Shown here in pieces: positions 8,096 through 57,781 of a stretch of 64,000 nucleotides of DNA. This DNA is from Fluviicoccus sp. (lineage in GTDB: Bacteria > Pseudomonadota > Gammaproteobacteria > Pseudomonadales > Moraxellaceae). Below the pieces are notes generated by a model. It did no database searches and was not told the origin of the DNA. It worked only from the letters and a program-made list of their open reading frames with translations. Within the stretch, counting starts at the first letter, position 1. Each line of letters opens with the position of its first letter. The position numbers and the translations under genes are program-made. Where the stretch lies: assembly GCF_030646115.1 (NCBI RefSeq), contig NZ_JAUSMX010000023.1, positions 1 through 64,000 on the forward strand. The letters run 5' to 3'.

Positions 8096-8136
8096 AACCC
8101 CCCGCCGCTGCGCGTCGGCCCCCTTTCCAAGGGGGC
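8094..8136 (+). repeat. palindromic repeat unit 1 (forward)
   Basis: The unit starts with AAAACCCC, continues with a short variable GC-rich stretch, and ends with the near-perfect palindrome GCCCCCTTTCCAAGGGGGC (8118-8136). It overlaps the tesB stop codon. It pairs in inverted orientation with unit 2, so the RNA could form one long cruciform that may also serve as a terminator for tesB. Confidence 0.9.
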
Positions 8137-8168
8137 GATATTTGGCAGGTTTTTCTCTGTGACCTGAA

Positions 8169-8208
8169 GCCCCCTTGGAAAGGGGGCGGCGCAAAGCGCC
8201 GGGGTTTT
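8169..8208 (-). repeat. palindromic repeat unit 2 (inverted)
   Basis: This is the reverse orientation of unit 1. The palindrome GCCCCCTTGGAAAGGGGGC occupies 8169-8187, followed by a variable hairpin GGCGCAAAGCGCC and a GGGGTTTT end. Units 1 and 2 together form a head-to-head pair spanning 8094-8208, with 32 bases between them. Confidence 0.9.
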
Positions 8209-8253
8209 CCAACAGCGAAATTGGCGCATACCTTCGCGGCCAACCAAGGGTCT

Positions 8254-8298
8254 AAAACCCCCCGCCGGCTTTGCCGCCGGCCCCCTTTCCAAGGGGGC
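8254..8298 (+). repeat. palindromic repeat unit 3 (forward)
   Basis: This unit has the same architecture as unit 1: AAAACCCC, a variable hairpin (GCCGGCTTTGCCGCCGGC), then the conserved palindrome at 8280-8298. The variable stem differs from unit 1 while keeping its complementarity, which is the pattern expected of a REP-like extragenic element. Confidence 0.9.
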
Positions 8299-8342
8299 GA
8301 GTCAATCGACCGCTTGAAATCGGGCCGCAGATGCCTAGAATA

Positions 8343-8382
8343 GCCCCCTTGGAAAGGGGGCGGCACGGAGTGCCGGGGTTTT
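8343..8382 (-). repeat. palindromic repeat unit 4 (inverted)
   Basis: This inverted unit pairs with unit 3. The palindrome lies at 8343-8361, the variable hairpin reads GGCACGGAGTGCC, and the unit ends in GGGGTTTT at 8382. The DUF559-RecQ frame opens 12 bases further on, so the repeat pairs fill nearly all of the 299 bases between tesB and that gene. Confidence 0.9.
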
Positions 8383-8394
8383 GTATCAAGGAAG

Positions 8395-10956: not shown

Positions 10957-11035
10957 ACGAACCCGTTTCGGCCATGGCCTGCTTTCTGCTAACATACGGC
11001 CCCCAAGACCCACCCGTCACCCACAGGAGTTCTCC

Positions 11036-11767
11036 ATGACCGAGCGCAGACCCGCCTACCAACGTATCCTGCTCAAACTCTCGGGAGAAGCCCTGTCCGG
11101 CGATGCTGAAATGGGCATTGATCCGCGCGTGCTGAACCGCATGGCGCTGGAAATCGGCCAATTGGTCGGGATCGGTGTGCAAGTCGGCCTGGTGCTGGGC
11201 GGCGGCAACATCTTTCGCGGCGCCGAGTTGCAGGCCAACGGCCTGGACCGGGTCGCAGGTGACCACATGGGCATGCTGGCCACCGTCATGAACGGCCTGG
11301 CCCTGCGTGACGCCCTCGAACGAGCGAACATCCGCACCCGTATCCTGTCGGCCATTCCCATGAGCGGCATTGTCGACCACTATGACCGCCGCGCTGCCAT
11401 CCGCGCCCTGCAAAGCGGCGATGTCTGCATTTTTGTCGGCGGCACCGGCAACCCCTTCTTCACTACGGACACCGCCGCCACTCTGCGCGGTATCGAGATC
11501 CAGGCGGATGTCGTGCTCAAGGCCACCAAGGTCGACGGCGTTTATGACTCCGACCCGGTCAAGAACCCGGATGCCGTCAAATACGACTATCTGACTTTCG
11601 ACGAGGCGCTGTCGAAAAAACTCGGCGTGATGGACCTGACGGCCATCTGCCTGTGCCGCGACCAGAAAATGCCGCTGCGCGTCTTCAATATGAACAAGCC
11701 GGGCGCTTTGATCAACCTGCTGATGGGCGAGGCCGAAGGCACGCTGCTCGGCAACAAGCCCCGCTAA
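11036..11767 (+). CDS. pyrH: uridylate kinase PyrH
   Basis: This 243-residue cytoplasmic UMP kinase, usually hexameric, makes UDP for pyrimidine nucleotide synthesis. Family features are KLSGEAL near residue 14, the GGGN(I/F)RG loop, RxxGDxMGMLAT near residue 80 and [14 protein letters not shown] near residue 136. A CAGGAG ribosome binding site precedes ATG 11036. It heads the conserved block pyrH-frr-uppS-cdsA-dxr-rseP-bamA. The usual upstream rpsB-tsf genes are absent here and recQ takes their place. Confidence 0.97.
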
Positions 11768-11784
11768 GGAATCCGGAGAAAATC

Positions 11785-12339
11785 ATGCTCAACGATCTGA
11801 AGAAAGACTGCGAAACCCGCATGCGCAAGACCCTCGAATCCCTGGACCAGGCATTCGGCAAGGTGCGCACCGGCCGCGCCCACCCTTCCATCCTCAAGGA
11901 TGTCATGGTGCCTTATTACGGTTCCGATGTGCCCTTGCTGCAAGTGGCCAACGTTTCGGTGGATGATTCCCGCACGCTGCTGATCCAGCCCTACGAACGC
12001 ACCATGACCGGCGCCATCGACAAGGCCATCCGCAACAGCGACCTCGGTCTCAACCCCATTTCCGCCGATGTGATCCGTGTCCCGCTGCCGGCGCTGACTG
12101 AGGAAACCCGCCGCAACATGCAGAAAGTGGCGCGCGGTGAGGCGGAAAACGCCAAGGTGGCCTTGCGCAACATTCGCCGTGATGTGCTGGCGGACGTCAA
12201 GGAGCTGCTCAAGGAGAAGGAAATTTCCGAGGATGACGATCGCAAGGCGTCGGAAGATGTGCAGAAGATTACCGACAAATTCGTGCAGGAAGTCGACAAG
12301 CACCTGGCGGCCAAGGAAGCCGAGCTGATTCAGGTCTGA
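11785..12339 (+). CDS. frr: ribosome recycling factor Frr
   Basis: This 184-residue factor splits post-termination ribosomes together with EF-G. It shows the family N-terminus with [11 protein letters not shown] near residue 27, the PLLQVANV segment, and the C-terminal helical part [21 protein letters not shown] chose ATG 11785 ([10 protein letters not shown]), which has a CCGGAG ribosome binding site 7 bases upstream; the longer frame overlaps pyrH. The length of 184 is standard. Confidence 0.97.
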
Positions 12340-12343
12340 TTCC

Positions 12344-13105
12344 GTGAGTTCAGCGCCAGACCTCGACAGCACCGGCGGTTCAGCTCTGCCGCGCCATGTC
12401 GCCATCATCATGGATGGCAACAACCGCTGGGCGAAGAAACGCCTGCTGCCCGGCGGCGCCGGCCACAAGGCCGGTGAGTCGGCCTTGCACAAGATTGTCG
12501 AGCATGCGGCCCGTCAGGGCGTCGAGGTGTTGACCGTTTTTGCCTTTTCCAGCGAAAACTGGCGTCGTCCTGAAAACGAAGTCACGCTGCTGATGAAGTT
12601 GTTCCTGCATGCGCTGGAGAAGCAGGTTGAAGATCTGCACCGGCACAATATCCGGGTGCGCTTTATTGGCGACCGCGCCATGTTCGCCCGGATTCTGCAG
12701 GACGGCATGGCGGCGGGTGAGGCCAAGACCGCCGCCAATACCGGCATGACGCTGGTGATTGCCGCCAGTTACGGCGGGCAGTGGGATGTTGCCAATGCCG
12801 CCCAGGAACTGGCCCGGCAGGTTCAGGCCGGAACCTTGCGTCCGGAGGACATTGATACCGCTCATCTCCAGCAGCAGGTGCAGATGTCCGACCTGCCGCC
12901 GGTGGACCTGCTCATCCGCACCGGCGGCGAGTTGCGCATCAGCAATTTCGTGCTGTGGCAGGCGGCCTACGCCGAATTCTATTTTTCCGAAAAACTCTGG
13001 CCGGACTTCGATCCCGCGTCGCTGGACGAGGCCTTGGCCGATTACGCCCGCCGACAACGCCGATTCGGCCGCACCAGCGCACAGGTAGAAAACCGACATG
13101 CTTAA
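12344..13105 (+). CDS. uppS: isoprenyl transferase, undecaprenyl diphosphate synthase UppS
   Basis: This 253-residue cytoplasmic cis-prenyltransferase condenses isopentenyl diphosphate with farnesyl diphosphate to make the C55 carrier. The signature IIMDGNNRWAKKR at about residues 21-33 contains the catalytic aspartate. The second signature, DLLIRTGGELRISNFVLWQ, lies near residue 189 and ends in the typical AYAEFYF segment. It opens with GTG at 12344, four bases after frr, and overlaps cdsA by 8 bases. It belongs to the same operon. Confidence 0.96.
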   Translation: MSSAPDLDSTGGSALPRHVAIIMDGNNRWAKKRLLPGGAGHKAGESALHKIVEHAARQGVEVLTVFAFSSENWRRPENEVTLLMKLFLHALEKQVEDLHRHNIRVRFIGDRAMFARILQDGMAAGEAKTAANTGMTLVIAASYGGQWDVANAAQELARQVQAGTLRPEDIDTAHLQQQVQMSDLPPVDLLIRTGGELRISNFVLWQAAYAEFYFSEKLWPDFDPASLDEALADYARRQRRFGRTSAQVENRHA

Positions 13106-13910
13106 GGAACGCATCATTACGGCGTTGATCCTGCTCCCCATCGTGCTGTGGTGCGTGTTCGGAGCCCAGGGGTCGGCCGCTTTCATGGCCTTGGCCGGAA
13201 CACTGGTCATGGTTGGCGCCTGGGAATGGACGGCGCTGATGAAAGTGGCGAGCCCGCTGGGGCGGGGTGCGTTTACCGCGCTGGTTGTCGCCGGTGTCAT
13301 CGCCATGAGCTTTCCCGCGCTGGCCGGACTGCGTACACCGTTGTTCGCGGCGGCATCCGTATTCTGGCTGATCGCAGTGCGCATGGTGATCTGGTATCCG
13401 GAATCGGCGCGCTGGTGGGCTAAAGGTATTGTACTGCTGCCGATGGGGCTGATCCTGCTGGTGCCGGCGTGGTCAGGTCTGGTTTATCTGCATCAGGTAT
13501 CCCCCTGGTGGCTGATGTATCTCTTCCTGCTGGTCTGGGGCGCTGACACCGGTGCCTATTTTACCGGTCGCGCCATCGGCAAACGCAAGCTGGCGCCGGC
13601 TGTCAGCCCGGGCAAGACTATCGAGGGCATGCTGGGCGGGCTGGCGCTAACCATGGTGATCATGGCTGCCGTCGGCTTCTACCGTGAACTGCCGCTAATC
13701 CGGTTCATTGCGTTTGCCGGTTTATCCCTGATGACGGTTTTTGCCTCGGTGCTGGGTGATCTGGTCGAATCCATGGTCAAGCGCCATGCCGGAGTGAAGG
13801 ATTCGGGTAGTATCTTCCCGGGTCATGGCGGTGCTCTGGACCGTATTGACAGCCTCACGGCCGCCGCCCCGGTTTTCGCACTGGGCTGGTTGTTGTCCGG
13901 AGGCTTCTGA
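13098..13910 (+). CDS. cdsA: phosphatidate cytidylyltransferase CdsA
   Basis: This 270-residue inner-membrane enzyme, with about eight hydrophobic segments, makes CDP-diacylglycerol from phosphatidate and CTP, the branch point of phospholipid headgroup synthesis. The family signature [13 protein letters not shown]...[12 protein letters not shown] is complete near the C-terminus (about residues 219-250). Its ATG lies inside the end of uppS, so translation is likely coupled. dxr starts four bases after its stop. Confidence 0.96.
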
Positions 13911-45342: not shown

Positions 45343-46224
45343 ATGTCTTATTTCAACCGCCTTATGCTTGCTTCCATTGTTGCCGCATCTTCATCCGCCT
45401 TTGCTCTGGAGTCGCTGGAAGATGAGGCACTGTCCCAGACCACTGGTCAGGACGGCGTAACCATCAGCATTACCCCGCCTGTCGCCGGCATCGTGTTTTC
45501 TACGGTGATCCATGATTCTGATCCTGTTGTTGATGGCGCCATCATCATTGGTAACCCACTGTCGGCAGCCGGTCATACCGCTACCAGTATCACTACCCCG
45601 GTCGGTCAGTCGATCAATCTGGTGGTCGATGCCACGGGTGATGTAGACGCTGGCACCGCTGGTAACCAGGCCTCCTTGCTGGTTAACGTGGTTATTCCGA
45701 CAGGCACTATTATTCATACCGGCTCCATCTCGGCAGCCCAAAGTAACTTGGCCGGCGTAGCTGTCACCAACCAAACTGCGGCTATTGTTGATGACATCAC
45801 TGTGACCTTGGGTGCAACCACTCTGGCCATGACACTGGGTAATGAAGTGGCCACTACCGGCCAAATGATGCGCTTTACCTCCCTCATGACCGGTGGTTTG
45901 ACGCTGGCCAACTTCGCCCTGCGCGACGCCAACGGCGGTAACGGCAGTGCGGCCAGCGGCGGTTCTGCCATTCGCGCCACCAGCATTGTCATGAATGATC
46001 TCGGCGCCAGCACCAATCTTAATATTGATGCCCGTATTGATGTAGTGCCTACCGGCCTGCAAGTCAATCTGGTGCAGTTCGGTACGTTGGCTGGTGGTGC
46101 GGATGTGCAGATGACGGGCTTGCGCTTCGGTAGTACTTCCGCAGTGGACAACGTGGCTATCGGCAACGTGGATATCGTCGGTCTGAACCTGGCAGGTACG
46201 CTGATCAAGATCGCCGGTCACTAA
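45343..46224 (+). CDS. FilA-like exported putative pilus subunit, copy 1
   Basis: This 293-residue exported protein belongs to the family annotated in Acinetobacter as 'putative pilus system protein FilA'. A signal peptide (MSYFNRLMLASIVAASSSAFA) is followed by 13 residues and the motif GQDGVTI. The body is rich in small and beta-prone residues and holds the family blocks VVDATGD, MTLGNEV and QFGTLAGGADVQ. It ends GNVDIVGLNLAGTLIKIAGH. ATG 45343 follows GGAGAG. It has its own promoter and terminator. Fibre-subunit function is inference from the cluster. Confidence 0.78.
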   Translation: MSYFNRLMLASIVAASSSAFALESLEDEALSQTTGQDGVTISITPPVAGIVFSTVIHDSDPVVDGAIIIGNPLSAAGHTATSITTPVGQSINLVVDATGDVDAGTAGNQASLLVNVVIPTGTIIHTGSISAAQSNLAGVAVTNQTAAIVDDITVTLGATTLAMTLGNEVATTGQMMRFTSLMTGGLTLANFALRDANGGNGSAASGGSAIRATSIVMNDLGASTNLNIDARIDVVPTGLQVNLVQFGTLAGGADVQMTGLRFGSTSAVDNVAIGNVDIVGLNLAGTLIKIAGH

Positions 46225-46247
46225 TCCGGTTGTTATTTTAGGTGTAC

Positions 46248-46278
46248 AGAATGCCCCGTATTCGGGGCATTCTTTTTC
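46248..46278 (+). terminator. terminator of filA-like gene 1
   Basis: The stem AGAATGCCCCG / CGGGGCATTCT (46248-46258 and 46263-46273) has the loop TATT and is followed by TTTTT. It begins 23 bases after the stop codon. Confidence 0.9.
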
Positions 46279-46447
46279 GTAAGTTGACATGGGAATGAAT
46301 GGATATTCAGGCCAATTATCGGAATATTCGTTAGGCCGCAAGGCTAAGTTACCGGGTGGTCGCAATCCACAAAGCTGCAGGCAGAGTCTTGCACGGGAGT
46401 GGCTGGAAATTGTTCATCCGTCTCATTGGCAAATGGCGCATCAAGTA

Positions 46448-46476
46448 TTGTTTTGGGGGGAGGTGTGTGAAAGAAT
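46448..46476 (+). promoter_or_regulatory. promoter of filA-like gene 2
   Basis: TTGTTT (46448-46453), 17 bases, then AAGAAT (46471-46476). The -10 element and the downstream GGGTGTACTAAAA stretch match the promoter of copy 1, while the spacer is different. Confidence 0.5.
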
Positions 46477-46537
46477 AAGGACGGGTGTACTAAAAACCAC
46501 GCGAATAAGCCAATATTGCCACCCCTTGGAGAGAACA

Positions 46538-47419
46538 ATGACTCATTTCAATCGCCTTCTGCTTGCTTCCCTGATTGCCACATCCTCTTCCGCCTTCGCT
46601 CTGGAGTCGCTGGAAGATGAGGCCCTGTCCCAGACCTCCGGTCAGGACGGCGTCACCATCAGCATTACCCCGCCTGTCGCCGGTATCGTGTTTTCTACGG
46701 TGATCCATGATTCTGATCCCGCTGTTGATGGCGCCATCATCATTGGTAACCCACTGTCGGCAGCCGGTCATACCGCTACCAGTATCACTACCCCGGTTGG
46801 TCAGTCGATCAATCTGGTGGTCGATGCCACGGGTGATGTAGATGCTGGCACCGCTGGTAACCAGGCCTCCTTGCTGGTTAACGTGGTTATTCCGACAGGC
46901 ACCATCATTCATACCGGCTCCATCTCGGCAGCCCAAAGTAACTTGGCCGGCGTGGCTGTCACCAACCAAACTGCGGCTATTGTTGATGACATCACTGTGA
47001 CCTTGGGTGCAACCACTCTGGCCATGACACTGGGTAATGAAGTAGCCACTACCGGCCAAATGATGCGCTTTACCTCCCTCATGACCGGTGGTTTGACGCT
47101 GGCCAACTTTGCCCTTCGTGATGCCAACGGCGGCAACGGTAGTGCGGCCAGTGGTGGCTCCGCCATTCGCGCCACCAGCATTGTCATGAATGATCTGGGT
47201 GCCAGCACCGACCTTAACATTGATGCCCGTATTGATGTAGTGCCTACCGGCCTGCAAGTCAATCTGGTTCAGTTCGGTACGTTGGCTGGCGGTGCTGATG
47301 TACAGTTGACAGGTTTGCGCTTCGGTAGCACTTCCGCAGTGGATAACGTGGCCATTGGCAACGTGGATATCGTCGGTCTGAACCTGGCAGGTACGCTGAT
47401 CAAGATCGCCGGTCACTAA
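46538..47419 (+). CDS. FilA-like exported putative pilus subunit, copy 2
   Basis: This 293-residue near-twin of copy 1 differs at 3 residues after the GQDG motif (V to A, N to D, M to L) but at 7 of the first 38 residues, in the signal peptide and propeptide. The signal peptide MTHFNRLLLASLIATSSSAFA is followed by the same 13-residue spacing to GQDG. ATG 46538 follows GGAGAG. The long frame starting at 46289 is an artefact of the open upstream region. It has its own promoter and terminator. Confidence 0.78.
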   Translation: MTHFNRLLLASLIATSSSAFALESLEDEALSQTSGQDGVTISITPPVAGIVFSTVIHDSDPAVDGAIIIGNPLSAAGHTATSITTPVGQSINLVVDATGDVDAGTAGNQASLLVNVVIPTGTIIHTGSISAAQSNLAGVAVTNQTAAIVDDITVTLGATTLAMTLGNEVATTGQMMRFTSLMTGGLTLANFALRDANGGNGSAASGGSAIRATSIVMNDLGASTDLNIDARIDVVPTGLQVNLVQFGTLAGGADVQLTGLRFGSTSAVDNVAIGNVDIVGLNLAGTLIKIAGH

Positions 47420-47440
47420 TCCGGTTGTTGCTTTAAGTGT

Positions 47441-47473
47441 GCAGAATGCCCCGTTATCGGGGCATTCTGCTTT
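47441..47473 (+). terminator. terminator of filA-like gene 2
   Basis: The stem GCAGAATGCCCCG / CGGGGCATTCTGC (47441-47453 and 47458-47470) has loop TTAT and a weak TTT tail. It is the duplicate of the copy 1 terminator with a two-base-pair longer stem. Confidence 0.8.
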
Positions 47474-47617
47474 GTGGGGCATCAAAAGTGAAAATTGGGA
47501 GGGAATCCAGGCCTTCTGTCTGCTGGATGATCAGTGCTGTGGCCAAAGCAAAAAGCTTGCTGTAAGATGTGCAAACTAATAACACTATAAAAATCACAAT
47601 GCCATGGAGATCTGCCC

Positions 47618-48487
47618 ATGAAAGGCCCCACTCCTTTTGCCAAAGCAACCGCCCTCATGGCTTGTGTACTCACGGCTTCCCCGGCTTTTGCCCTTGAAAA
47701 TCTCTCCGATACCGATCTGTCCGGTGAAGTCGCGCGTGACGGTGTCACCTTTAAACTGATTCTGGCGGATTTTGACGGCGCAGGGGCGGGCACCGATCTC
47801 GGTTTGAGTGTTGGCCAAACGTTGCTGCATGACGGTGATGGCACGCCGGGCGCAATAGTTCATGGTACGAGTATTGTGGGGGATCGACTGGAGTTGACCA
47901 TGGCGGCGGGTAGCGTCATCACGACAATGGTTGATGCTGTGGGTGATGCCAGTGCATTGCCGGGCAACCAGGCCATGTTGAACATAAATATTGATGTGCC
48001 GGCTTTTACCCTCAAGACAGGTAAATTGTATGCAGCGCGCAGTAACGGTACAGGTGCAGTTGTTTCTGACTTGTCCGGGGCCATTACCGAGGGTATGACC
48101 CTAAATGTGGGGGCTTTAACTGTGAATGCCCAGCTTGGCACAGAAAACCAAGGGTACATGTTGCTGGTCAATGGGAATATGGCGGGTGGAATTACGGGTT
48201 CCAACTTTGTCCTGAATGATGTCAATTCGGGGGGGGGTATTCGTATAAATACCATTGCGATTGAGAATAACGGAGCCAGTACTGCGCTGGATGTTTCCGT
48301 GGGCGTAGACATCGGGCCGGCGGGTCTAGTAGCCGAGGTCATTCAATTGGGTACCCTGGCAGGTGGCATGGACTTGCAGTTGGGTGGCGTGAAGCTTGGC
48401 AATGCTGGCGCCACATCCATTGGCAATGTGGATATTGTCGGCTTGAACCTGGCGTCTACGCTGATCCAGATATCCGGTCATCTTTGA
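47618..48487 (+). CDS. FilA-like exported protein, divergent copy 3
   Basis: This 289-residue paralogue has the signal peptide KATALMACVLTASPAFA, then 13 residues and ARDGVTF in place of GQDGVTI. It shares the blocks MVDAVGD, QLGTENQ, IQLGTLAGGMDLQLGGVKLG and the ending IVGLNLASTLIQISGHL. Loss of the Gln-Gly part of the motif is notable because the spacing is kept. A GGAG ribosome binding site precedes ATG 47618. It is followed by a very long perfect hairpin. A role as a minor or tip subunit is possible. Confidence 0.72.
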   Translation: MKGPTPFAKATALMACVLTASPAFALENLSDTDLSGEVARDGVTFKLILADFDGAGAGTDLGLSVGQTLLHDGDGTPGAIVHGTSIVGDRLELTMAAGSVITTMVDAVGDASALPGNQAMLNINIDVPAFTLKTGKLYAARSNGTGAVVSDLSGAITEGMTLNVGALTVNAQLGTENQGYMLLVNGNMAGGITGSNFVLNDVNSGGGIRINTIAIENNGASTALDVSVGVDIGPAGLVAEVIQLGTLAGGMDLQLGGVKLGNAGATSIGNVDIVGLNLASTLIQISGHL

Positions 48488-48496
48488 TGCGGAGTG

Positions 48497-48555
48497 GGTG
48501 ACATAGTCATAAAAAAGGCCACTTTATACGTGGCCTTTTTTATGACTATGTCACC
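48497..48555. terminator. 26-bp perfect-stem bidirectional terminator
   Basis: The left arm 48497-48522 and right arm 48530-48555 are perfectly complementary over 26 bases around a 7-base loop (TTTATAC). The inner part AAAAAAGGCCAC / GTGGCCTTTTTT forms a classical terminator in both directions, and an outer stem GGTGACATAGTCAT extends it. Confidence 0.9.
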
Positions 48556-48913
48556 GCAGGCCGTTAAAACGCCTTTATCAATGCCTGAAGGAGGGTGGCG
48601 CGCAGCGCCGGGATAGGGCTCGCTAACGGTCGCTTGATGGTTGCTCTTGGATGCTACTCAGCTTCCAAACCCGAGTCATATGCTGACGGAAAGGGCAAGC
48701 CTTGGCTTCAACAGCTTCGCCAGCCAACAAGTTTTGTGATGCAGTCCTCATTCGTAACGAAAATTCTACCTTTTGTCGGACTCGGGGCAAAAAGATGCAT
48801 TCCGGGGCTTGTCCGATGGTAGGAGTAGTGTTACTTTTCGTTTGCCTAATAGCACGTTACCGATTCCACGGTGACAAAAAATTAGAATTAAACCCCCTCG
48901 AGGAGAACTCCAA
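48556..48913. other. 358-base non-coding gap upstream of filA-like gene 4
   Basis: No convincing gene is present. Near 48596-48612 the sequence GTGGCGCGCAGCGCCGGG resembles the variable hairpin and end of the palindromic units at 8.1-8.4 kb, but the GCCCCC core is missing, so it may be a decayed remnant. The last 80 bases are AT-richer and end with the strong ribosome binding site GAGGAG; they probably contain the promoter of the next gene. Confidence 0.5.
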
Positions 48914-50017
48914 ATGAAAGCTTTTCAAAAGCTCGCTCTTGTTTCCGCTATTGCTCTGACCTCCACCGCTTTCGCCATGGAAGTTGCTGATGACGAAACC
49001 CTGGCTGCTGCAACTGGCCAAGACGGTATCACCATCGCCATCGCTCCTGGTACCCGCACCGGTGCCCAGTTGACTGGTCTTGGTGTCAATCTGCTGGATG
49101 CCGGCGTGGATCTGGACTTGGCAATCAACGGCGGTAACGCTGACGGCGTGTACAAGGGCCTCAGCATCACCCAAACCGTTATCCATGATGACGACGGCTT
49201 GAACACTCTTGGTCTGTCCCGCGCTGGTGCCATCGTCATGGGTGACGGCACTGCTGCTGACGCCACTGTGATTTTTGCTGACAACCAAACCCCGATCATT
49301 GTCAAGATCGATGCTATTGGTGATAACTCAGCTGCTGCCGGTAACACCGCCATGCTGCAAGTTGGTATCGAAACCCCGACGCTGGTCATCAAGACCTCTG
49401 ACATTTACGTTGCTGCTTCCAACGCCAACGCTGACGAAACTGTTTCCGGTTTGGATCACAATGGCGACGGCGACATTCTGGACGTCGAAACCAACGGTTC
49501 CAGCAACTCTGACTCCATTCGCATCATGAATGGCTTGACCCTGAAGGTTGGTGCCAGCGGTGCCGGTAACAACCTGATGACCATCCAACTGGGTAACGAA
49601 GCTCAGACCCTGTTCGGTGGCGCTGCTTCTGCTGTGAACCCGGAAGTGATGATCAAGCTGACTGCTACTCTGACTGGCGGTCTGGTGATTTCCAATCTGG
49701 AACTGCTTGACCAAGACGCAGTTGCCGGTCCTGGCTTGGGTGGCATCCGCGCCGCTTCCATGGCTATCAACAACGCTGGTTCCGGTGTTGGTGGTAATCT
49801 GGATGTCGTTGCTGGTGTGAACGTGGGTGACGGTTCTGCCGCTACCAACCCGAATGGTCTGGTGATCACACTGGGTCAATTGGGTACGGCTCTTGGCGGT
49901 GCAGACATCACTTTGAACAATGTTCAATTGGGTAGCGCTGCTGCTCCCGATCTGGGCGACGTGCAAATGCTGGGTCTGAACCTGGCCGGTGCCAGCCTGA
50001 TCATCAGCGGTCACTAA
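48914..50017 (+). CDS. FilA-like exported protein 4, probable major subunit with EF-hand loop
   Basis: This 367-residue paralogue, the longest of the five, starts with signal peptide MKAFQKLALVSAIALTSTAFA, then 13 residues and GQDGITI. It carries a 12-residue canonical EF-hand calcium loop, DHNGDGDILDVE, near residue 178, plus the family blocks KIDAIGD, IQLGNEA and LGGADITLNNVQLG. It ends MLGLNLAGASLIISGH. Codons are strongly biased (GCT, GGT, CTG, AAC), and the ribosome binding site GAGGAG is strong, which suggests that this is the most highly expressed member. It has its own terminator. Confidence 0.76.
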   Translation: MKAFQKLALVSAIALTSTAFAMEVADDETLAAATGQDGITIAIAPGTRTGAQLTGLGVNLLDAGVDLDLAINGGNADGVYKGLSITQTVIHDDDGLNTLGLSRAGAIVMGDGTAADATVIFADNQTPIIVKIDAIGDNSAAAGNTAMLQVGIETPTLVIKTSDIYVAASNANADETVSGLDHNGDGDILDVETNGSSNSDSIRIMNGLTLKVGASGAGNNLMTIQLGNEAQTLFGGAASAVNPEVMIKLTATLTGGLVISNLELLDQDAVAGPGLGGIRAASMAINNAGSGVGGNLDVVAGVNVGDGSAATNPNGLVITLGQLGTALGGADITLNNVQLGSAAAPDLGDVQMLGLNLAGASLIISGH

Positions 50018-50043
50018 TCAATAGAGGTTTGCCTCTGTTGGTC

Positions 50044-50069
50044 AAAACGGCAGCCTCGGCTGCCGTTTT
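50044..50069. terminator. terminator of filA-like gene 4
   Basis: AAAACGGCAGC / GCTGCCGTTTT (50044-50054 and 50059-50069) with loop CTCG forms an 11-bp perfect stem with A and T flanks, so it could act in both directions. It begins 26 bases after the stop. Confidence 0.9.
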
Positions 50070-50174
50070 GTATTGTTGGGTACAAAAAACGCCACTAAAA
50101 ACGATGAAATAAATCCACCTATCGTTTATCATCCAAAGGTCAATAAAAATAACAGCCACCCAGCGGATCAGTGT

Positions 50175-51014
50175 ATGGCCAACTTCATAATTCCCGGAAT
50201 CCTTATTGTCGGCGTGCTTTCCCTTCAGGCCCATGCGCTGGAATCCATTGCTGATGAGGCCCTGTCCGAGTCCGTAGGCCAGGATGGCATCACCATCAGC
50301 ACCTCCGTAAACTGGTTGTCGCAGTCAGTCAAAGTTCATGATCTTAACGGGGTGCCAGCCACCTTGGTGGCAGGCAATGCCAATGCTGGCACCGTGGCAT
50401 TCAATGGCTGGGGCATGCAGGGTTGTACCAATGGCGCGGGTGCAGCCTGCACCACCACCACCAATCCGACGTTCAATATCCTGATTGATGCCACTGGCGG
50501 TGCTGCACCTTTTATACAAATGGCAGTTAACTGGGATGCTGGCATTGGTAAAATTCGTTTCCTGCTGGATAACATCAGTTTGCAAAACGGGTTAGGCGGC
50601 AACAATGTTGAAATAATTGATCTGGCGCAGGGCTATGTTGATGTGATTCGCCCCGCAGGGGCACCGGCCTTGAATATTCAGCTGGGTAACGAACCCGGTG
50701 GCAACATGATAACGCTGGCATCATTTAATGTCGGTACACTGGATTTTGGTCAGGTGCTGCTGCGCGACAAGAGTGATACGCTTGTTAATAACCGGAACAT
50801 CCGGTTCAGCTTCGCCCTGACCGGTCTGGATTTAACCAACACCACTGTGAATGTAATTCCCACCGGACTGGTGATCGGCAATCCCAGCATGACTGGCCTT
50901 GGCTTCACCATGACCGATATCATTGCCGGGAATACCACCACTACCATGGGCTCGGTGGGCGTAACGAATATCACGCTGACCAACCTGTCTGTCCGTATTT
51001 CCGGGAAAAGCTGA
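50175..51014 (+). CDS. filA: FilA homologue directly upstream of filB
   Basis: This 279-residue exported protein holds the position of filA in Acinetobacter clusters. Signal peptide MANFIIPGILIVGVLSLQAHA is followed by 13 residues and GQDGITI. The middle contains two cysteines (GCTNGAGAACTTTT) not present in the other copies. Shared blocks are LIDATGG and IQLGNEP; the end is LTNLSVRISGKS, a variant of ISGH. ATG 50175 lacks a good ribosome binding site; the open frame from 50073 has no signal peptide. About 184 non-coding bases separate it from filB. Confidence 0.75.
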   Translation: MANFIIPGILIVGVLSLQAHALESIADEALSESVGQDGITISTSVNWLSQSVKVHDLNGVPATLVAGNANAGTVAFNGWGMQGCTNGAGAACTTTTNPTFNILIDATGGAAPFIQMAVNWDAGIGKIRFLLDNISLQNGLGGNNVEIIDLAQGYVDVIRPAGAPALNIQLGNEPGGNMITLASFNVGTLDFGQVLLRDKSDTLVNNRNIRFSFALTGLDLTNTTVNVIPTGLVIGNPSMTGLGFTMTDIIAGNTTTTMGSVGVTNITLTNLSVRISGKS

Positions 51015-51198
51015 AAGAACGAACAGTTGTTGGGGTTGCATGCGTATTTGCGTAGGGTTTACGTAAATTGCGCGTGAAAACTCTTTTAAAAGAAGGTATT
51101 TTTCACCAGTTGATTGCTTGTAAGCCATCAGGCAGTCTATAGGCTGCGGTCATAATCATCATGGCTCCTCCGGGTGCCTAAAACTAGAAAAACAGTTT
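51015..51198 (+). promoter_or_regulatory. AT-rich leader upstream of filB
   Basis: This 184-base gap probably holds the promoter of filBCDEF. It contains a 12-base perfect dyad TCTTTTAAAAGA (51082-51093). There is no terminator-like hairpin, so read-through from filA is also possible. Confidence 0.35.
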
Positions 51199-52032
51199 AT
51201 GTTCACACTGACACTTGGCTCCGCCCTGATCTACATGTTCGCCAACGAGGCTTTTGAAGTGGCGGATGTGCCTGCGTCCACAATTTACTACACGCATACG
51301 GTGGATGGCCGGGTGGATAGCCCAAAAAACATGCGTGAATCTCCAGTGACCGTGGAGACATTGCAAGAGCAGCGCTACAGAAATATTGTTCATCAAGCAT
51401 ATGACTATAGCTGCGGCTCGGCGGCACTGACTACATTATTGAATGGCTATTTGGGCCGCAAGTTCACTGAAAAGCAGGTAATGGATGGACTGCTGAAATT
51501 TGGTGAATATGACAAGATTGTTCAGCGGCGTGGATTTTCGCTGCTGGACATGAAGCGTTTGGTAACGGCGCTCGGACACCCCAGTGGTGGCTACAAGGGG
51601 ACCATGGATGACTTGAAAAAGCTTGACCATCCGGCCATTGTTCCCATTCATTATGCCAATTTCAAGCATTTCGTGGTTATCCGTAAATATCAGGACGGAC
51701 GCTTCTTTGTGGCTGATCCGGCACTGGGTAATATCAGTTTTCCGGAGTACCGTTTTGCTGAAATCTGGGAAAACAATGTCATGTTCATTGTCTTCCCCAA
51801 CGGTTTCAAACCCCGCTCTACACTTGAGTTAACGGAAGCCGATCTGCGTTATGTGGATGACCAGACCATCAACCAGTTGACGTTTGCATCTCTGTACACG
51901 TTTGACAAGCAGATGACTGAGAATGCAGACAGAGCGGGCACCATGCAGCGTGTATTGAATATGGACACCGAAAGTCCGGATTTCAACAAGCCGGTTAATG
52001 TCCCGTTGCGAACCTACTTCCGTCGCAAATAA
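51199..52032 (+). CDS. filB: FilB, C39-like cysteine peptidase of the Fil system
   Basis: This 277-residue protein has a short N-terminal hydrophobic segment (about residues 2-16) and a C39-type papain-fold domain. The predicted catalytic residues are Cys72 in HQAYDYSCGSAAL (with Gln66 for the oxyanion hole), His157 in NFKHFVV and Asp173 in VADPALGN. Unlike bacteriocin exporters it has no ABC-transporter domains. C39 enzymes cut after glycine-ending leader motifs, so the GQDG motif of FilA-like proteins is a plausible substrate. The N-terminus is short for a signal peptide, so it may be an inner-membrane anchor. It heads the filBCDEF run. Confidence 0.82.
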   Translation: MFTLTLGSALIYMFANEAFEVADVPASTIYYTHTVDGRVDSPKNMRESPVTVETLQEQRYRNIVHQAYDYSCGSAALTTLLNGYLGRKFTEKQVMDGLLKFGEYDKIVQRRGFSLLDMKRLVTALGHPSGGYKGTMDDLKKLDHPAIVPIHYANFKHFVVIRKYQDGRFFVADPALGNISFPEYRFAEIWENNVMFIVFPNGFKPRSTLELTEADLRYVDDQTINQLTFASLYTFDKQMTENADRAGTMQRVLNMDTESPDFNKPVNVPLRTYFRRK

Positions 52033-52076: not shown

Positions 52077-53186
52077 ATGATGAGAAATTGGGGTAAGGCG
52101 CCGCATCTCGTGATGATGCTGAATGGCTTGTGTTTCTCGGCGGCCTATGCGGAAGATCAGCCCGCAGCTGATGCTTCAGCCCCGGCTGCGACGCCTGCGG
52201 CAGCTGTACCAGCAGCCGTGACTCCCGCTGCCGCACCAGCTTCTGGCGCGGATGCGGCCCGTGACGCCTTGACGCAGAAAAGTGAAGACGCCAGTTCAAC
52301 CAAGAATCTTGAGCAGGTATTCAAGGCTACTGAAAAAACTTATTCCCTGCTCAAGCAAGGCAAGTTCGGCGCTAACTATAGCGGCGACTATAGTTATTAC
52401 CGCGACAGTCGTATTGATATTGCCCTGGATGGCAATGGTTCCGGATTGACCCGTTTCCGTATTGAGGAAGATGCTCAGCATACTTTTTCCAACTCGCTCG
52501 AAGTCACCTATGGCTTTCGGGATAACCTGACTTTTTCCGCCAGTTTGCCCTTGGTTTACAAGATTGATTCCCAGGCGGACAAGCAAGTCGTTGGACTGGG
52601 AGACCTTTCCCTCGGGGTCAGGTGGCAACCGGTGCCTCTGAAAAACGGGCTGCCTACCACTACATTGTTTGGTTCAATTTCCACGGCCACCGGCGATAGT
52701 CCATTTGAAATCAACGCCGGGCAGGATCTATCCACTGGCAAGGGCTATTACAGCTTCTCCGGCGGCGTCAGTATGAACAAGGTGACAGACCCCATTGTGC
52801 TATTTGGTTCTGCAAGCGCCACTATCAGTAATAATATTGGCAGCTTGAATCAGCAGCGCGGTTCGCGAGCTTTGGTCGGGGTTAGCCCAGGTGATACCTT
52901 GGGTGTATCCATGGGTTTTGCGTATTCGCTGAATTATGATGTGAGCATGAGTGCCTCTTTCCAGCAAAGCGTTACCTCTGGTTCCCGGTTCAAGTTTAAT
53001 GATGGCAAGTATGTTGAGTCTGCAACCCAAGTATCGGCATTGGTCAACTTTTCGCTTTCCCTCCGTACGTCGCCTAAACGCATTGTCAACCTGAATCTGG
53101 GCTATGGTCTTACCGAAGACACCCCTGACGTGACATTGGGCTTCTCGATGCCGATAGAGTTCCTTGGATTGGCTTCGGCTAACTGA
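52077..53186 (+). CDS. filC: FilC, predicted outer-membrane beta-barrel protein
   Basis: This 369-residue exported protein has a signal peptide ending AAYAE near residue 25, an Ala/Pro-rich linker to about residue 63, a short helical segment (LEQVFKATEKTYSLLKQG), and then a region of alternating beta strands from about residue 95 to the end. Barrel-like strands include FSNSLEVTYGFRDNLTFSASLPLVY and VSMGFAYSLNYDVSMSASFQQ. It resembles the transporter-type barrels annotated as FilC in Acinetobacter. A role as surface exit or anchor for FilA polymers is inference. It lies 44 bases after filB. Confidence 0.7.
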   Translation: MMRNWGKAPHLVMMLNGLCFSAAYAEDQPAADASAPAATPAAAVPAAVTPAAAPASGADAARDALTQKSEDASSTKNLEQVFKATEKTYSLLKQGKFGANYSGDYSYYRDSRIDIALDGNGSGLTRFRIEEDAQHTFSNSLEVTYGFRDNLTFSASLPLVYKIDSQADKQVVGLGDLSLGVRWQPVPLKNGLPTTTLFGSISTATGDSPFEINAGQDLSTGKGYYSFSGGVSMNKVTDPIVLFGSASATISNNIGSLNQQRGSRALVGVSPGDTLGVSMGFAYSLNYDVSMSASFQQSVTSGSRFKFNDGKYVESATQVSALVNFSLSLRTSPKRIVNLNLGYGLTEDTPDVTLGFSMPIEFLGLASAN

Positions 53187-53211: not shown

Positions 53212-54879
53212 ATGAAAATGTCATATTTAAAGGGAAAGAGATGTGCGCTGGCAGCGGCGGTTTGTCTCTCCGGCAGTGCGGCTCAGGCGCAGCTGGCTCA
53301 GAATCTTTCCGTTGATCTCCGGTCATTGTCACTGGGTAATGCGGTTACGGCCGATCCTCCGGGTGTGAATGCCATTCACTTCAACCCGGCTGGACTTACC
53401 AAAATCAATGGTTTGCAGCTCGATGTCCAGTTACTGATGGCAGACTTCTCTATTGAGAGTGAGTTCTCTGCTCCCAAAGGTTTTAATGTCTTTGGTTATT
53501 CTGATGACCCTGTAGTTTGTGATGACGCTGAAAATGATGGCGAACGACTCTGCTCCAACTTTAGGATTGGCAGAAGTTCCGTGAAGGGGGTGGGTCTTTA
53601 TCTACCCATTCTGGACAAGTTCGTGAAGTTGCCGCCTGGTCCGATTGCCGCTCCTACTGCTGGCATTGCATACAAGCCTCCTGGCTCGCGTTTCACTTTC
53701 GCCACGGCTGCCTATGCACCCATGATTGCCGGTCTATATCGTAGTCCTGATGATCCTGGAACCTTCATGGGCAAGGAGGTTGCGCTGGAACGGATTACCT
53801 ATCTCTCGCCTTCTGTGGCCTACAAGCTGACGGATGATCTTTCTGTAGGGCTTTCAGTCGGGATGTCCTATCAGGCTATTACCCTGAATACGGATTTTAG
53901 AGGACCCAACGAACTGATTGGTGTTTTCCGGTTGCTAGACGAAGATGTCTGCGCTCCGTTCAAGGGGAACGCCAATATTGTCACTGATTTGCTGCTGTTC
54001 GGTATCTGTAATGCCGAGGAAAGCCTGGGCCCGTTCAAAAAGCTGGCGGCGCTGGATGTAAGCATGCAGCAAACATTGTCCCCTACTTATAACTTGGGTG
54101 TGCTCTGGGAGCCGAATGACAGTTTCGCTTGGGGAGCGGTCTATCAGAGCGGCAGTAATATGCGACTGAAGGGCAAATATAAAATCACCTACGAAAAGGG
54201 TGCCCGTGAACTGATCAATAACGGCTTGCAAAGCTCCATTACCGGCCAGATTCTTGGTGCAATTCTTGGTTTGCCCACTTATATGCCGGCCAAGGAAGAA
54301 GGGTTGATGTCCATGAACCTGACTTATCCGGCCCACTTTCAGACCGGCATTAAGTATAAGGTCATTCCTCCCCTGCAAATTAATTTCGATATTGGCTGGA
54401 CCGACTATGGTGCATGGGATGCCTTCAAATTCGAGTTTGACCGGCAATTGGCCGTGCTGCAGATTGCCCGTCTGCTGGTGCCCGGCACCACACCCACAAC
54501 CTTGAATTTCCCATTGGGTTTCTCCAGCCCTTGGAGTTGGGGTGTCGGTATTGAATATTCGCATACCAACCGCCTGAAATTCCGTTTGGGTTATGAACCC
54601 CGCAAGAGCGCTATTCCGTTGAACAAGCGTAATGCGCTGGCACCTATCAATGATGCCCAAATGTTCGGCACCGGTATCGGTTATAAATTTGATCGTGATA
54701 CCGATCTGGATCTGACACTGATGCATCTTCGCAGTCGTGACGATATTCCGGCCAACTCCAGTAGCTTGCTTAACAATACAGGTGTCAATAACTTGGTTTA
54801 CAACCCCTTTGCCGGCCTCGATGTCAAAACCAGGGCAGTGGTCAATATCATGGGTCTTGTTTACCGTACTCGCTGGTGA
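53212..54879 (+). CDS. filD: FilD, OmpP1/FadL-family outer-membrane protein
   Basis: This 555-residue outer-membrane protein has a signal peptide ending AAQAQ near residue 23. The mature N-terminus, LRSLSLGNAVTADPPGVNAIHFNPAGLTKING, shows the FadL/OmpP1 hallmark (A...N..A...NPAGL). Long-chain lipid transport is the usual role of the family; in the fil cluster it is a conserved component of unknown task. Two cysteine pairs lie in extracellular-loop-like regions (VVCDDAENDGERLCSN, and DEDVCAP with FGICNAEE). It lies 25 bases after filC and 3 before filE. Confidence 0.8.
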   Translation: MKMSYLKGKRCALAAAVCLSGSAAQAQLAQNLSVDLRSLSLGNAVTADPPGVNAIHFNPAGLTKINGLQLDVQLLMADFSIESEFSAPKGFNVFGYSDDPVVCDDAENDGERLCSNFRIGRSSVKGVGLYLPILDKFVKLPPGPIAAPTAGIAYKPPGSRFTFATAAYAPMIAGLYRSPDDPGTFMGKEVALERITYLSPSVAYKLTDDLSVGLSVGMSYQAITLNTDFRGPNELIGVFRLLDEDVCAPFKGNANIVTDLLLFGICNAEESLGPFKKLAALDVSMQQTLSPTYNLGVLWEPNDSFAWGAVYQSGSNMRLKGKYKITYEKGARELINNGLQSSITGQILGAILGLPTYMPAKEEGLMSMNLTYPAHFQTGIKYKVIPPLQINFDIGWTDYGAWDAFKFEFDRQLAVLQIARLLVPGTTPTTLNFPLGFSSPWSWGVGIEYSHTNRLKFRLGYEPRKSAIPLNKRNALAPINDAQMFGTGIGYKFDRDTDLDLTLMHLRSRDDIPANSSSLLNNTGVNNLVYNPFAGLDVKTRAVVNIMGLVYRTRW

Positions 54880-54882
54880 TTC

Positions 54883-55800
54883 ATGCGTGGAATGTGTGTT
54901 TTGATGGCGGCGGTTTGCTCATTTGCGACGGCTGGGGAAAAGTTTTTTCCAACCGTGGATGCTAATGGGCGGATGATAGTGATCAAGTCGTCCGCTGCGC
55001 AGGATGGCAAACCGGAAGCCAAAGCTTCGGATGTAAGTCCGCCGGCAGTGGATGCGTCGAAGCCTGAGCCGAAGGCAGTGGAAAAGCAAAGTGGGGGGGA
55101 GTCGCAAGCCGGAGCCATCGACAAGTTGTCTGAAACCCAGCCATATACCTTTAGTGAGGAGTTGGAGCAAAAAGGGTACAAGCCAGAAGGGAAAAACCGG
55201 TTTTATTATCTGCCGGATGGCAGCATGGGCAAGACTCCGCTAGAGTCAGAGGACGGTGTGCCGGTCTGGACCCAGCCATCTGCCGGAGAGGAAGACTCGG
55301 CTCCCACCGTCAGGCCATCACCGAACTATCAGGTGTTGTTGCCGGATGAGTTGACGTCTTATGGTGTCCCGTCAGAACAGTGTCTTTCTGCTCGCGCCTT
55401 GAAGAAGGCTCGAACTATTTTGCATCGTAGTGTGTTTCGTGTTTATCGCCCACTGGATGAGGATCCTCGCCAACCGGACATGGTATTGAGCCTGAAAAAC
55501 ATCAAGCCTGATTCCGCCTTGTTCATGTTGACGCATTCCGATTCTATTGCGATTCCGGGCTTTTATACACCCGTTGTGGTTTTTCGCGATGCCAAAGGGT
55601 GTGTGATATCGGGCGCTTGGAATTATTGGTCACACCAGAATCCCTCGACAGATTTGCGTTTTGAATCCCTTGAAGGAACCTTGCTGGTTGGTGACGGTGT
55701 TGCCTATGTCACTTTGCACAACCCTTCAGACTCCATCAAGAGCAGGCTTCCTTTCAGCTACCAGCGGGAAGGTTCGTTTTCGGTTGAAATATATGAATAA
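54883..55800 (+). CDS. filE: FilE, exported putative pilus assembly protein
   Basis: This 305-residue exported protein has a short signal peptide (MRGMCVLMAAVCSFATA), an FFPTVDANGRMIVIKSS segment, a disordered linker to about residue 80, and a globular domain from about 120 that contains PDELTSYGVPSEQC, VFRVYRPLDEDPRQPDM and VVVFRDAKGCVISGAWNY. The two later cysteines may form a disulfide. No enzymatic motif was found. The name follows position and resemblance to Acinetobacter FilE. It begins 3 bases after filD. Confidence 0.7.
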   Translation: MRGMCVLMAAVCSFATAGEKFFPTVDANGRMIVIKSSAAQDGKPEAKASDVSPPAVDASKPEPKAVEKQSGGESQAGAIDKLSETQPYTFSEELEQKGYKPEGKNRFYYLPDGSMGKTPLESEDGVPVWTQPSAGEEDSAPTVRPSPNYQVLLPDELTSYGVPSEQCLSARALKKARTILHRSVFRVYRPLDEDPRQPDMVLSLKNIKPDSALFMLTHSDSIAIPGFYTPVVVFRDAKGCVISGAWNYWSHQNPSTDLRFESLEGTLLVGDGVAYVTLHNPSDSIKSRLPFSYQREGSFSVEIYE

Positions 55801-55813
55801 TGAGGCTGGAATC

Positions 55814-57781
55814 ATGGCTGATCTTTTCCGCAGGCTTTATCTGTCGACCGCATTGGCTGCGGTGGCTGCGGCTTTAACCGCTTGCGGCGGCAGCAACAAT
55901 CTTGACGATCCTGTCACCGAAATCAAGTCGTCCTGCGTTGGCGCTACCTGCGTTTCCGGGCAGTTTGTTGACGAACCGGTGGCTGGCCTGAATTATCGTT
56001 GTGAAAATGTGGTGGGTGAAACATCCGCGACAGGAATGTTCAGTTGCCCCAATAATTCAGTGGTAACTTTTTATCTGAAAGCCAAAAACGGCACTCGTGA
56101 AATTGTGCTAGGCTCGGTCAAGATTGCCAAGGTTGTCAGTGTAAACAATTACCAGACCGTCAAATTCCTGCAGATTACCCCCCGTAATCTGGTTGATAAT
56201 GGTTACGCCATTGATGACCTGAATGCTCAGGAAAACAAGGTAATTCAGGTTCTGAACATCATCCGTTTCCTACAGGCGATGGGTGATCCCGCTGATGCTT
56301 ATCCGGGCGCAAGCGGCCGCATTACGCTGACGGATGAACGGAAAAAAGCAATTGAAGCCTTGGAGACGGATTTTGCAGCCGTGCTGTTTTCAACATCTAA
56401 TTTTGACAGCCTGATACAGCCGGTTTTGGCCAAGGTCGGGCCAGCCGGTGTCACATTACCTTCCGCAACGGCTGCAATTGACCGCTACATGACCGGATTT
56501 CGGGCGTTGCAGGCCGGTGTTTATGAGGCCAATCCGCAGGTGTTTTCCGGATTTGTTGATCTGGAAAAGCAGAACCTTCGGGATGTCGGCGTCGTTGGGC
56601 AAAGTGGTTCAACCGTGGTGGCGGGCTCTAACAGGATTTCCCAAAAGGCACTGGAAGGTTTCCTGTTAATGCTGGATCGGGACGGCAAATCCTTGGGCTT
56701 TGGTCTGGAATGGCTGGATGAAGTGCAGACTTCCCCAACTGATGCGTCTGATCTGTCGATTCCGCGCTCCGTCAGTGATATGCGATTAAAATCCGCCCCG
56801 GTAGATTTGACGCCGGTCAGCAATAATATCGGCTTCAATATGTCCGGTTTGATCAAGCCTGATTTTTCATTCCGTGTGGGCACAGCGGGAACCGGGGAGA
56901 ATCTGGGCACTGTGCAGATTACAGCCGGAACCATGGAGCATGGTTTTATTTTGGGACATGCGGTGTTTTACCGGAACCTGTTCGGCCTGTCTGATTCCGA
57001 GCCGGTCGACCCCAAGAAAATCGGGTCATGGAAACGGTTGGGACCCACCGGTTTGACACAGTATGAAGGCAACGCGACGATTCAGAGGTTCCGCACCCTT
57101 GACCCGTTCCTCGATCCGGTGGTCTGGAAAACCATGAGTACCTTGCCTTCCGGGCAGAACGCCAAGCCGGTTTTCCCGCTGCATTTGAAGATGACCTTGC
57201 GTAACAATGACACGCGCCCGCTGAGCGGTTGCGGAGCCAACGGATGTGTGGTCGGGAAAATTGATTTCACGGTGCTTGAGAACGGTAATATCGTCTCTGA
57301 TGTGGATCAGGACTGCAGTGCGTTGAAGACCGATGGCAGTGACCAGGATGCCGAAGGCCAGCAGGAGTATCGCTTGGGTTCTGTGGCAGCGTTGATTCAA
57401 GAGCTTTCGTCCAACTATTTCAGCCCGGTGATGCTGATCCCCCGCATTCCTGGTTTGGAGGCACTGTATGGTACGCAAATCGGCATGACGACCAGCGCCG
57501 GTGGCGGCAAGGTCAAGATCGGTTTTTCAGCAGTTCATGCAGGTAGTGTTTCCATACTGGATAATGAGGCGGAAAACTCAGTAGCTTCTGCAACATGGGT
57601 TAATTACCTGAAATTTCACCGGCTTTCACAAACGCATTCGGGTGACCCTTCAAAAGAAAAAGTCCAAGTGAATGAGAAACGTGAGATTACGCCCAAATTC
57701 ACAGATGAAATTCCAACGGTGCAAGGTGTAATTTCTGACATCCAGTTGCAGGCTTGCTATAACCCGTTGCCCAAACCCTGA
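55814..57781 (+). CDS. filF: FilF, putative pilus system lipoprotein
   Basis: This 655-residue lipoprotein has a signal peptide with lipobox LTAC (Cys24). The N-terminal module, CVSGQFVDEPVAGLNYRCENVVG...TGMFSC, is a carboxypeptidase-regulatory-like fold common in surface lipoproteins. The rest is large and mostly beta, with further cysteines in LSGCGANGCVVG and DQDCSAL. A surface or tip-adhesin role is possible but not shown. ATG 55814 was chosen for the signal peptide; the open frame from 55661 overlaps filE. It is the last gene of the cluster and is followed by a terminator. Confidence 0.75.
   Translation: MADLFRRLYLSTALAAVAAALTACGGSNNLDDPVTEIKSSCVGATCVSGQFVDEPVAGLNYRCENVVGETSATGMFSCPNNSVVTFYLKAKNGTREIVLGSVKIAKVVSVNNYQTVKFLQITPRNLVDNGYAIDDLNAQENKVIQVLNIIRFLQAMGDPADAYPGASGRITLTDERKKAIEALETDFAAVLFSTSNFDSLIQPVLAKVGPAGVTLPSATAAIDRYMTGFRALQAGVYEANPQVFSGFVDLEKQNLRDVGVVGQSGSTVVAGSNRISQKALEGFLLMLDRDGKSLGFGLEWLDEVQTSPTDASDLSIPRSVSDMRLKSAPVDLTPVSNNIGFNMSGLIKPDFSFRVGTAGTGENLGTVQITAGTMEHGFILGHAVFYRNLFGLSDSEPVDPKKIGSWKRLGPTGLTQYEGNATIQRFRTLDPFLDPVVWKTMSTLPSGQNAKPVFPLHLKMTLRNNDTRPLSGCGANGCVVGKIDFTVLENGNIVSDVDQDCSALKTDGSDQDAEGQQEYRLGSVAALIQELSSNYFSPVMLIPRIPGLEALYGTQIGMTTSAGGGKVKIGFSAVHAGSVSILDNEAENSVASATWVNYLKFHRLSQTHSGDPSKEKVQVNEKREITPKFTDEIPTVQGVISDIQLQACYNPLPKP

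Follow-up and report, generated by a model that had tools for sequence, protein, structure and literature searches.

The five FilA proteins encoded in a complete fil operon of Fluviicoccus sp. carry, behind an ordinary Sec signal peptide, a second N-terminal element that is in register with the double-glycine leaders of C39 peptidase substrates. Judging from sequence and predicted structure, the stand-alone C39 peptidase FilB of the same operon probably removes this leader in the periplasm after Sec export, at GQ↓DG (the arrow marks a predicted cut), and the freed subunits would then leave through the FapF-like pore FilC.

The operon lies on the plus strand of the window (the whole stretch of 64,000 nucleotides that was analyzed) and comprises five filA genes, filA1 (45343 to 46224), filA2 (46538 to 47419), filA3 (47618 to 48487), filA4 (48914 to 50017), and filA5 (50175 to 51014), followed by filB (51199 to 52032), filC (52077 to 53186), filD (53212 to 54879), filE (54883 to 55800), and filF (55814 to 57781). 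In profile searches, all five FilA proteins match the FilA model, and FilB matches both the C39 and the FilB models. FilC is a relative of the outer-membrane pore FapF (NF050079, 1.2e-116; NF058560 FapF, 3.8e-21) and a candidate exit channel. By model matches, filD encodes an OmpP1/FadL family barrel, filE its namesake, and filF a lipoprotein, whose Acinetobacter homologue is released by the type II secretion system (PMC12802150). The filA1 and filA2 genes are tandem near-duplicates with 94% DNA identity, and their likeness extends ∼40 bases upstream and ∼60 bases downstream of the genes.

In all five FilA proteins, exactly 13 residues lie between the end of the signal peptide (assigned by eye as AxA behind the hydrophobic core) and a GQDG or ARDG motif, as described in an earlier note on this DNA: AFA-LESLEDEALSQTT-GQDG in FilA1, AFA-LESLEDEALSQTS-GQDG in FilA2, AFA-LENLSDTDLSGEV-ARDG in FilA3, AFA-MEVADDETLAAAT-GQDG in FilA4, and AHA-LESIADEALSESV-GQDG in FilA5. 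The 13-mer is acidic in each protein and (V/I)T(I/F) comes after the motif, also in agreement with that description, while the proposed LExxxDxxL(S/A) pattern holds in four proteins and fails in FilA4, which starts with M, not L. The 13-residue spacing is typical of FilA-type proteins, but it is not the conserved unit: FapE-type proteins differ in how far the leader lies from the signal peptide, and what stays constant is the register from position -12 to position -1. This 12-residue leader is LEDEALSQTTGQ in FilA1 (45415 to 45450, behind a signal peptide encoded at 45343 to 45405 and with the predicted cut between 45450 and 45451), LEDEALSQTSGQ in FilA2 (46610 to 46645), LSDTDLSGEVAR in FilA3 (47702 to 47737), ADDETLAAATGQ in FilA4 (48986 to 49021), and IADEALSESVGQ in FilA5 (50247 to 50282). 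Position -2 is occupied by G in four leaders and A in FilA3, and position -1 by Q in four and R in FilA3, outside the G/A/S range of double-glycine leaders. Position -4 is T in FilA1 and FilA2 and E, A, and S in FilA3, FilA4, and FilA5, respectively; FilA4 has A at -12, and individual FilA leaders are weaker than the leader set as a whole (see below).

The AF2 model of FilA1, built like that of FilB on a shallow alignment, has pLDDT values below 50 through Q36, a low-confidence helix at residues 27 to 34, and beta structure from residue 39, so that the ordered, all-beta domain starts where the cut is predicted. Profile searches with the FilA proteins returned matches to FilA and DUF6160 only, and no FapB/FapC amyloid repeats were encountered in the operon. 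Mature FilA had no significant fold match in a structure search of the PDB, and the fold therefore gives no functional inference.

FilB has the previously noted Cys72-His157-Asp173 set (codons at 51412 to 51414, 51667 to 51669, and 51715 to 51717), which is invariant in 17 FilB relatives, and indeed has no transporter part: its 277 residues include an N-terminal hydrophobic segment and, by profile search, no ABC membrane or ATPase domains. It belongs to the C39 fold by its match to PF03412 (3.7e-18) and resembles FapD (NF058616, 4.3e-33). The core of its model has a pLDDT of ∼80, the top fold matches are the C39 domains of PCAT1, ComA, and LahT150, and the TM score against the LahT150-leader complex (6mpz) is 0.76. 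The hydrophobic segment, together with the periplasmic action shown for FapD (PMC5557850), suggests that FilB is periplasmic.

FilB relatives were taken from 39 genome loci of Moraxellaceae, Marinobacter, and Burkholderiales, and in 31 of the 33 filB loci that had sufficient upstream sequence and were scored, the 12-residue element recurs in Sec-exported proteins encoded by one to five genes upstream of filB. Across 101 distinct leaders, this element reads [LIM] at -12, D at -10, L at -7, V at -4, G at -2, and Q/R/A/G/K at -1. The hydrophobic residues of double-glycine leaders are found throughout the set (L/I/M at -12, L/M at -7, and V/T at -4), and the same three positions occupy the groove of C39 in the LahT150-leader structure, whose report quotes a C39 recognition motif of Leu-12 with Glu-8 and Leu-7 (PMC6363468). 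The likeness to double-glycine leaders, regarded as loose in the earlier note, is thus one of register, with a small residue at -2. That residue is G in 88 leaders and A in 13, under a search pattern that admitted G and A only; information values are inflated at the positions fixed by this pattern, but the pattern alone does not account for the constant spacing or for the residues seen where it sets no constraint.

A plain search for GGNCARGAYGGNGTNAC found only two FilA proteins and missed the majority of leaders, and profiles took its place; likewise, a simple regular expression had 8 matches in 250 kb of control DNA, and a scoring matrix was therefore chosen for the test. With a matrix derived solely from the leaders of the window genome, scores of at least 8 were obtained for 98 of the 131 Sec-signal open reading frames upstream of filB in the 33 loci and for 23 of 268 such frames elsewhere in those loci. 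This control, along with the one for FapD-like loci described below, rules out chance similarity of the leaders.

The mature parts of the leader-bearing proteins belong to different families (DGVSIAADLHIN..., GLFTVSNSSYNGFDF..., DGMSFNLSNFAM..., DGISFAVDLNLN...), and unrelated members have in common just the signal peptide and the leader. Several of them match the Pfam family DUF6160 (PF19657) over these two elements only, with the match ending around position 46; the first ∼46 positions of DUF6160 correspond to a signal peptide plus this leader, whereas the family definition covers more sequence than that, and many leader proteins match its N-terminal part only or fall below the cut-off. Four further Sec-exported leader proteins are encoded in tandem on contig C4 of the window genome (G000; positions 8054 to 13468 of locus L013), forming a second cluster with the cut motifs VTGE↓GIAIL, VVAQ↓QGVAV, VVGQ↓SLFTS, and VSGQ↓EGIQV. 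No peptidase is encoded alongside this cluster, and the genome has one C39 peptidase in all. In fil loci of Massilia (L027 at 14207, L044 at 14171, L046 at 9715, and others), the element LSDEELGEVTAQ↓GRNDDALRD is found in a gene ∼4 kb downstream of filB. In two Marinobacter loci with filB, filC, and filD relatives (L020 and L021), no leader gene lies within 10 kb, and the substrates of their FilB proteins are presumably encoded elsewhere.

The distribution of the leader follows that of FilB. A FilB profile and a profile of the signal peptide plus leader were run on the same genomes, with the FilB clade delimited at ≥250 bits in the class set and ≥190 bits in the order set. Leader proteins were found in 6/6 FilB-positive genomes and 4/268 others (one match each) among the 274 genomes of the class, and in 17/18 and 2/128, respectively, among the 146 genomes of the order. 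In the union of the two sets, they occur in 21 of the 22 FilB-positive genomes and 6 of the 394 negative ones, with a Fisher p value of 5e-29 that overstates the association because related genomes are not independent; counted by family, leader proteins are present in 11/11 FilB-positive families. The frequent occurrence of GQDG proteins in genomes devoid of a FilB-like peptidase, which would have spoken against the earlier proposal, was not observed. The exceptions in the order set are two incomplete genomes (G329, 89% complete, and G275, 75% complete) and one with a single weak match (G311); the FilB locus of G329 (L135) contains one leader-like gene that the profile missed. Five genomes from the same families that lack a FilB-clade peptidase (G343, G372, G400, G162, and G292) had no leader match in the profile search. 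Mere operon linkage was rejected as the cause of the co-occurrence, as each of the 21 positive genomes contains leader genes that are not linked to filB, and in 11 of them the matches tallied include none close to filB. With substrates encoded at such distances, FilB would act in trans.

Leaders of the same type are found next to the FapD-like peptidases, which make up sister clades of FilB. A matrix trained on leaders from FilB loci only gave a score of at least 8 in 11 of 20 fresh FapD-like loci and in 0 of 20 control stretches (p=7e-5), with the qualification that some high-scoring words are not true leaders (in L091, the best match is on the opposite strand and the evident leader scores 6.5). 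Usually, the product of the gene that follows fapD has the motif LxDxEL..(L/M)RG(G/R/K)↓(F/Y). In a Pseudomonas-type fap operon (L125) whose FapD and FapE equivalogs score above the cut-off, FapE (near 5853, minus strand) has the leader LKDQELAQLRGK↓YVMPG, or, in a longer form, FRPIELKDQELAQLRGK↓YVMPG (core, ELKDQELAQLRGK↓YV). RGK↓Y is thus a candidate FapD cut site with lysine at P1, which a search for GG would miss. FapE is the sole Fap protein whose N terminus is missing in mass spectrometry, the missing part being approximately the first 70 residues, i.e., more than the leader alone; the same study found the FapD cysteine to be needed for secretion and remarked that canonical C39 sequences are missing from the Fap proteins (PMC5557850). 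A 2025 review goes no further than naming FapE and FapF as proteins that FapD is "thought to" process (PMC12822426). No FapD cleavage site was found in a search of the open-access literature.

The residues at P2-P1 differ between the peptidase clades: GQ, GR, or GA in FilB; GR or GK followed by Y or F in FapD; GG↓F in a third, sister clade; and AG in a fourth. On the peptidase tree, this character requires 11 parsimony changes, compared with a minimum of 24 in 2,000 label shuffles; the labels were set by hand from the scans, with one main label per locus, and operons are inherited as blocks, so that the pattern is support and not proof, and part of it is shared descent of whole operons. In the AG clade (L059, near 5808 and 6762; L069, near 5288, 5845, 6134, and 6695; L092; L098; and L132), stand-alone C39 peptidases adjoin small exported proteins with the leader LTEAQMDQVSAG↓ and a FapF-like pore. 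Seven stand-alone C39 matches were found in one genome (G046); two share a locus (L070), and each of the two has a pore relative there.

In the proposed pathway, FilA would be exported by Sec and its ordinary signal peptide removed by signal peptidase, leaving a 15-residue N-terminal extension, the last 12 residues of which would serve as the double-glycine-type leader. The membrane-anchored, periplasmic FilB would read this leader as a helix, with positions -12, -7, and -4 in its groove and Gly/Ala at -2 in the S2 pocket, and cut after -1, which is Q in four FilA proteins and R in FilA3. The freed beta-rich subunit would be passed on to FilC, and FilB may act in trans on other exported leader proteins, such as those of the contig C4 cluster.

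That FilB processes FilA, with possible control of polymerization, had been proposed in the earlier note, and the processing itself is backed by the register of the leader, by its co-occurrence and co-absence with FilB, and by P2-P1 residues specific to each clade; the site now predicted is two residues earlier than the one given there, behind the last glycine of GQDG. A cut at that glycine would suit the usual preference of C39 peptidases, and the DG is present in all five FilA proteins and many other leader proteins (D at +1 in 55/101). However, it is missing from many leader proteins, some of them encoded at the same loci and in the same genome: the residues after -1 vary among DG, GG, GL, AM, AL, SL, GV, and GI, as in GQ↓GLFTV, GQ↓ALFTL, GQ↓AMVAI, and the SLFTS and GIAIL proteins of contig C4, and some relatives have A or G at -1 (RGA↓GLG in Ideonella and TGG↓DGI in Rugamonas). 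Conservation across unrelated substrates ends at GQ, a cut after -1 would fit all leaders where one after GQDG would fit only part of them, and the latter would shift the hydrophobic register by two residues, all of which makes the earlier site improbable. To our knowledge, the P1 residue of known C39 peptidases is G, A, or S, and Q or R is not used.

A different account, in which the leader is a sorting signal for the pore (FilC/FapF) or a chaperone, with FilB acting on another target or only later, we regard as rather unlikely. FilC/FapF-like pores are found at nearly every C39 locus examined, and FapF is itself among the proteins that the review names for FapD (PMC12822426). Moreover, filB, filC, and filD share an operon, so co-occurrence cannot separate FilB from FilC or FilD as the reader of the leader. 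What favors the peptidase over the pore is that the motif is in the register bound by C39 groove residues and that P2-P1 tracks the peptidase clade. It is also conceivable, albeit highly improbable, that no second cleavage takes place and the acidic extension is kept on the mature subunit for assembly, e.g., as a donor strand. The fil families bear pilus-like names, and other fibers employ N-terminal extensions; yet the spacing of the hydrophobic residues is helical, not alternating, the segment is modeled as a low-confidence helix, and the same leader is carried by small unrelated exported proteins and by FapE, with its missing N terminus (PMC5557850). Removal of the leader by FilB is the reading adopted in what follows.

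More broadly, and with somewhat less assurance, stand-alone periplasmic C39 peptidases (FilB, FapD, the GG and AG clades, and others) may well share a general logic of outer-membrane secretion, whereby Sec exports the protein, the C39 peptidase removes a second, double-glycine-type leader according to the P2-P1 code of its clade, and a FapF/FilC-family pore lets the product out, with FapE as the substrate of FapD. If so, the division of labor of the peptidase-containing ABC transporters (PCATs) has been rebuilt at the outer membrane for many unrelated surface and matrix proteins. The proteolytic activity of FapD is required for secretion of the Pseudomonas biofilm amyloid, and the leader code offers exact predicted sites (RGK↓Y in FapE and GQ↓D in FilA), allows further candidate substrates to be listed in any genome, and makes sense of DUF6160 and of the fil operon, which includes the gene for FilF, a surface antigen in Acinetobacter.

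In gene content and order, filA to filF, the operon agrees with the Acinetobacter fil operon (NCBIfam pilus_FilA to FilF), with all six families matched, although only FilE scores above the curated NCBIfam cut-offs; NCBIfam names no substrate for FilB. The Pseudomonas Fap system has a homologous C39 peptidase and pore (the FapD and FapF matches given above are below the equivalog cut-offs) and a FapE leader of the same type as that of FilA. It differs in that the FilA subunits are unlike the FapB/FapC repeats, in that several main subunits bear the leader in fil whereas it was seen on FapE only in this fap operon, and in the P1 residue, K or R in Fap versus Q in fil. The PCAT/AMS transporters (LahT, ComA, and PCAT1) share with FilB the C39 fold and catalytic set, with the fil leader the hydrophobic residues at -12, -7, and -4 and the small residue at -2, and probably also the removal of the leader en route through a channel. 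In these transporters, however, the C39 domain is fused to ABC parts, whereas FilB is a stand-alone and apparently periplasmic protein, its substrates arrive by Sec with their own signal peptides, the channel would be a FapF-like pore in the outer membrane, and P1 is mostly Q or R instead of G, A, or S.
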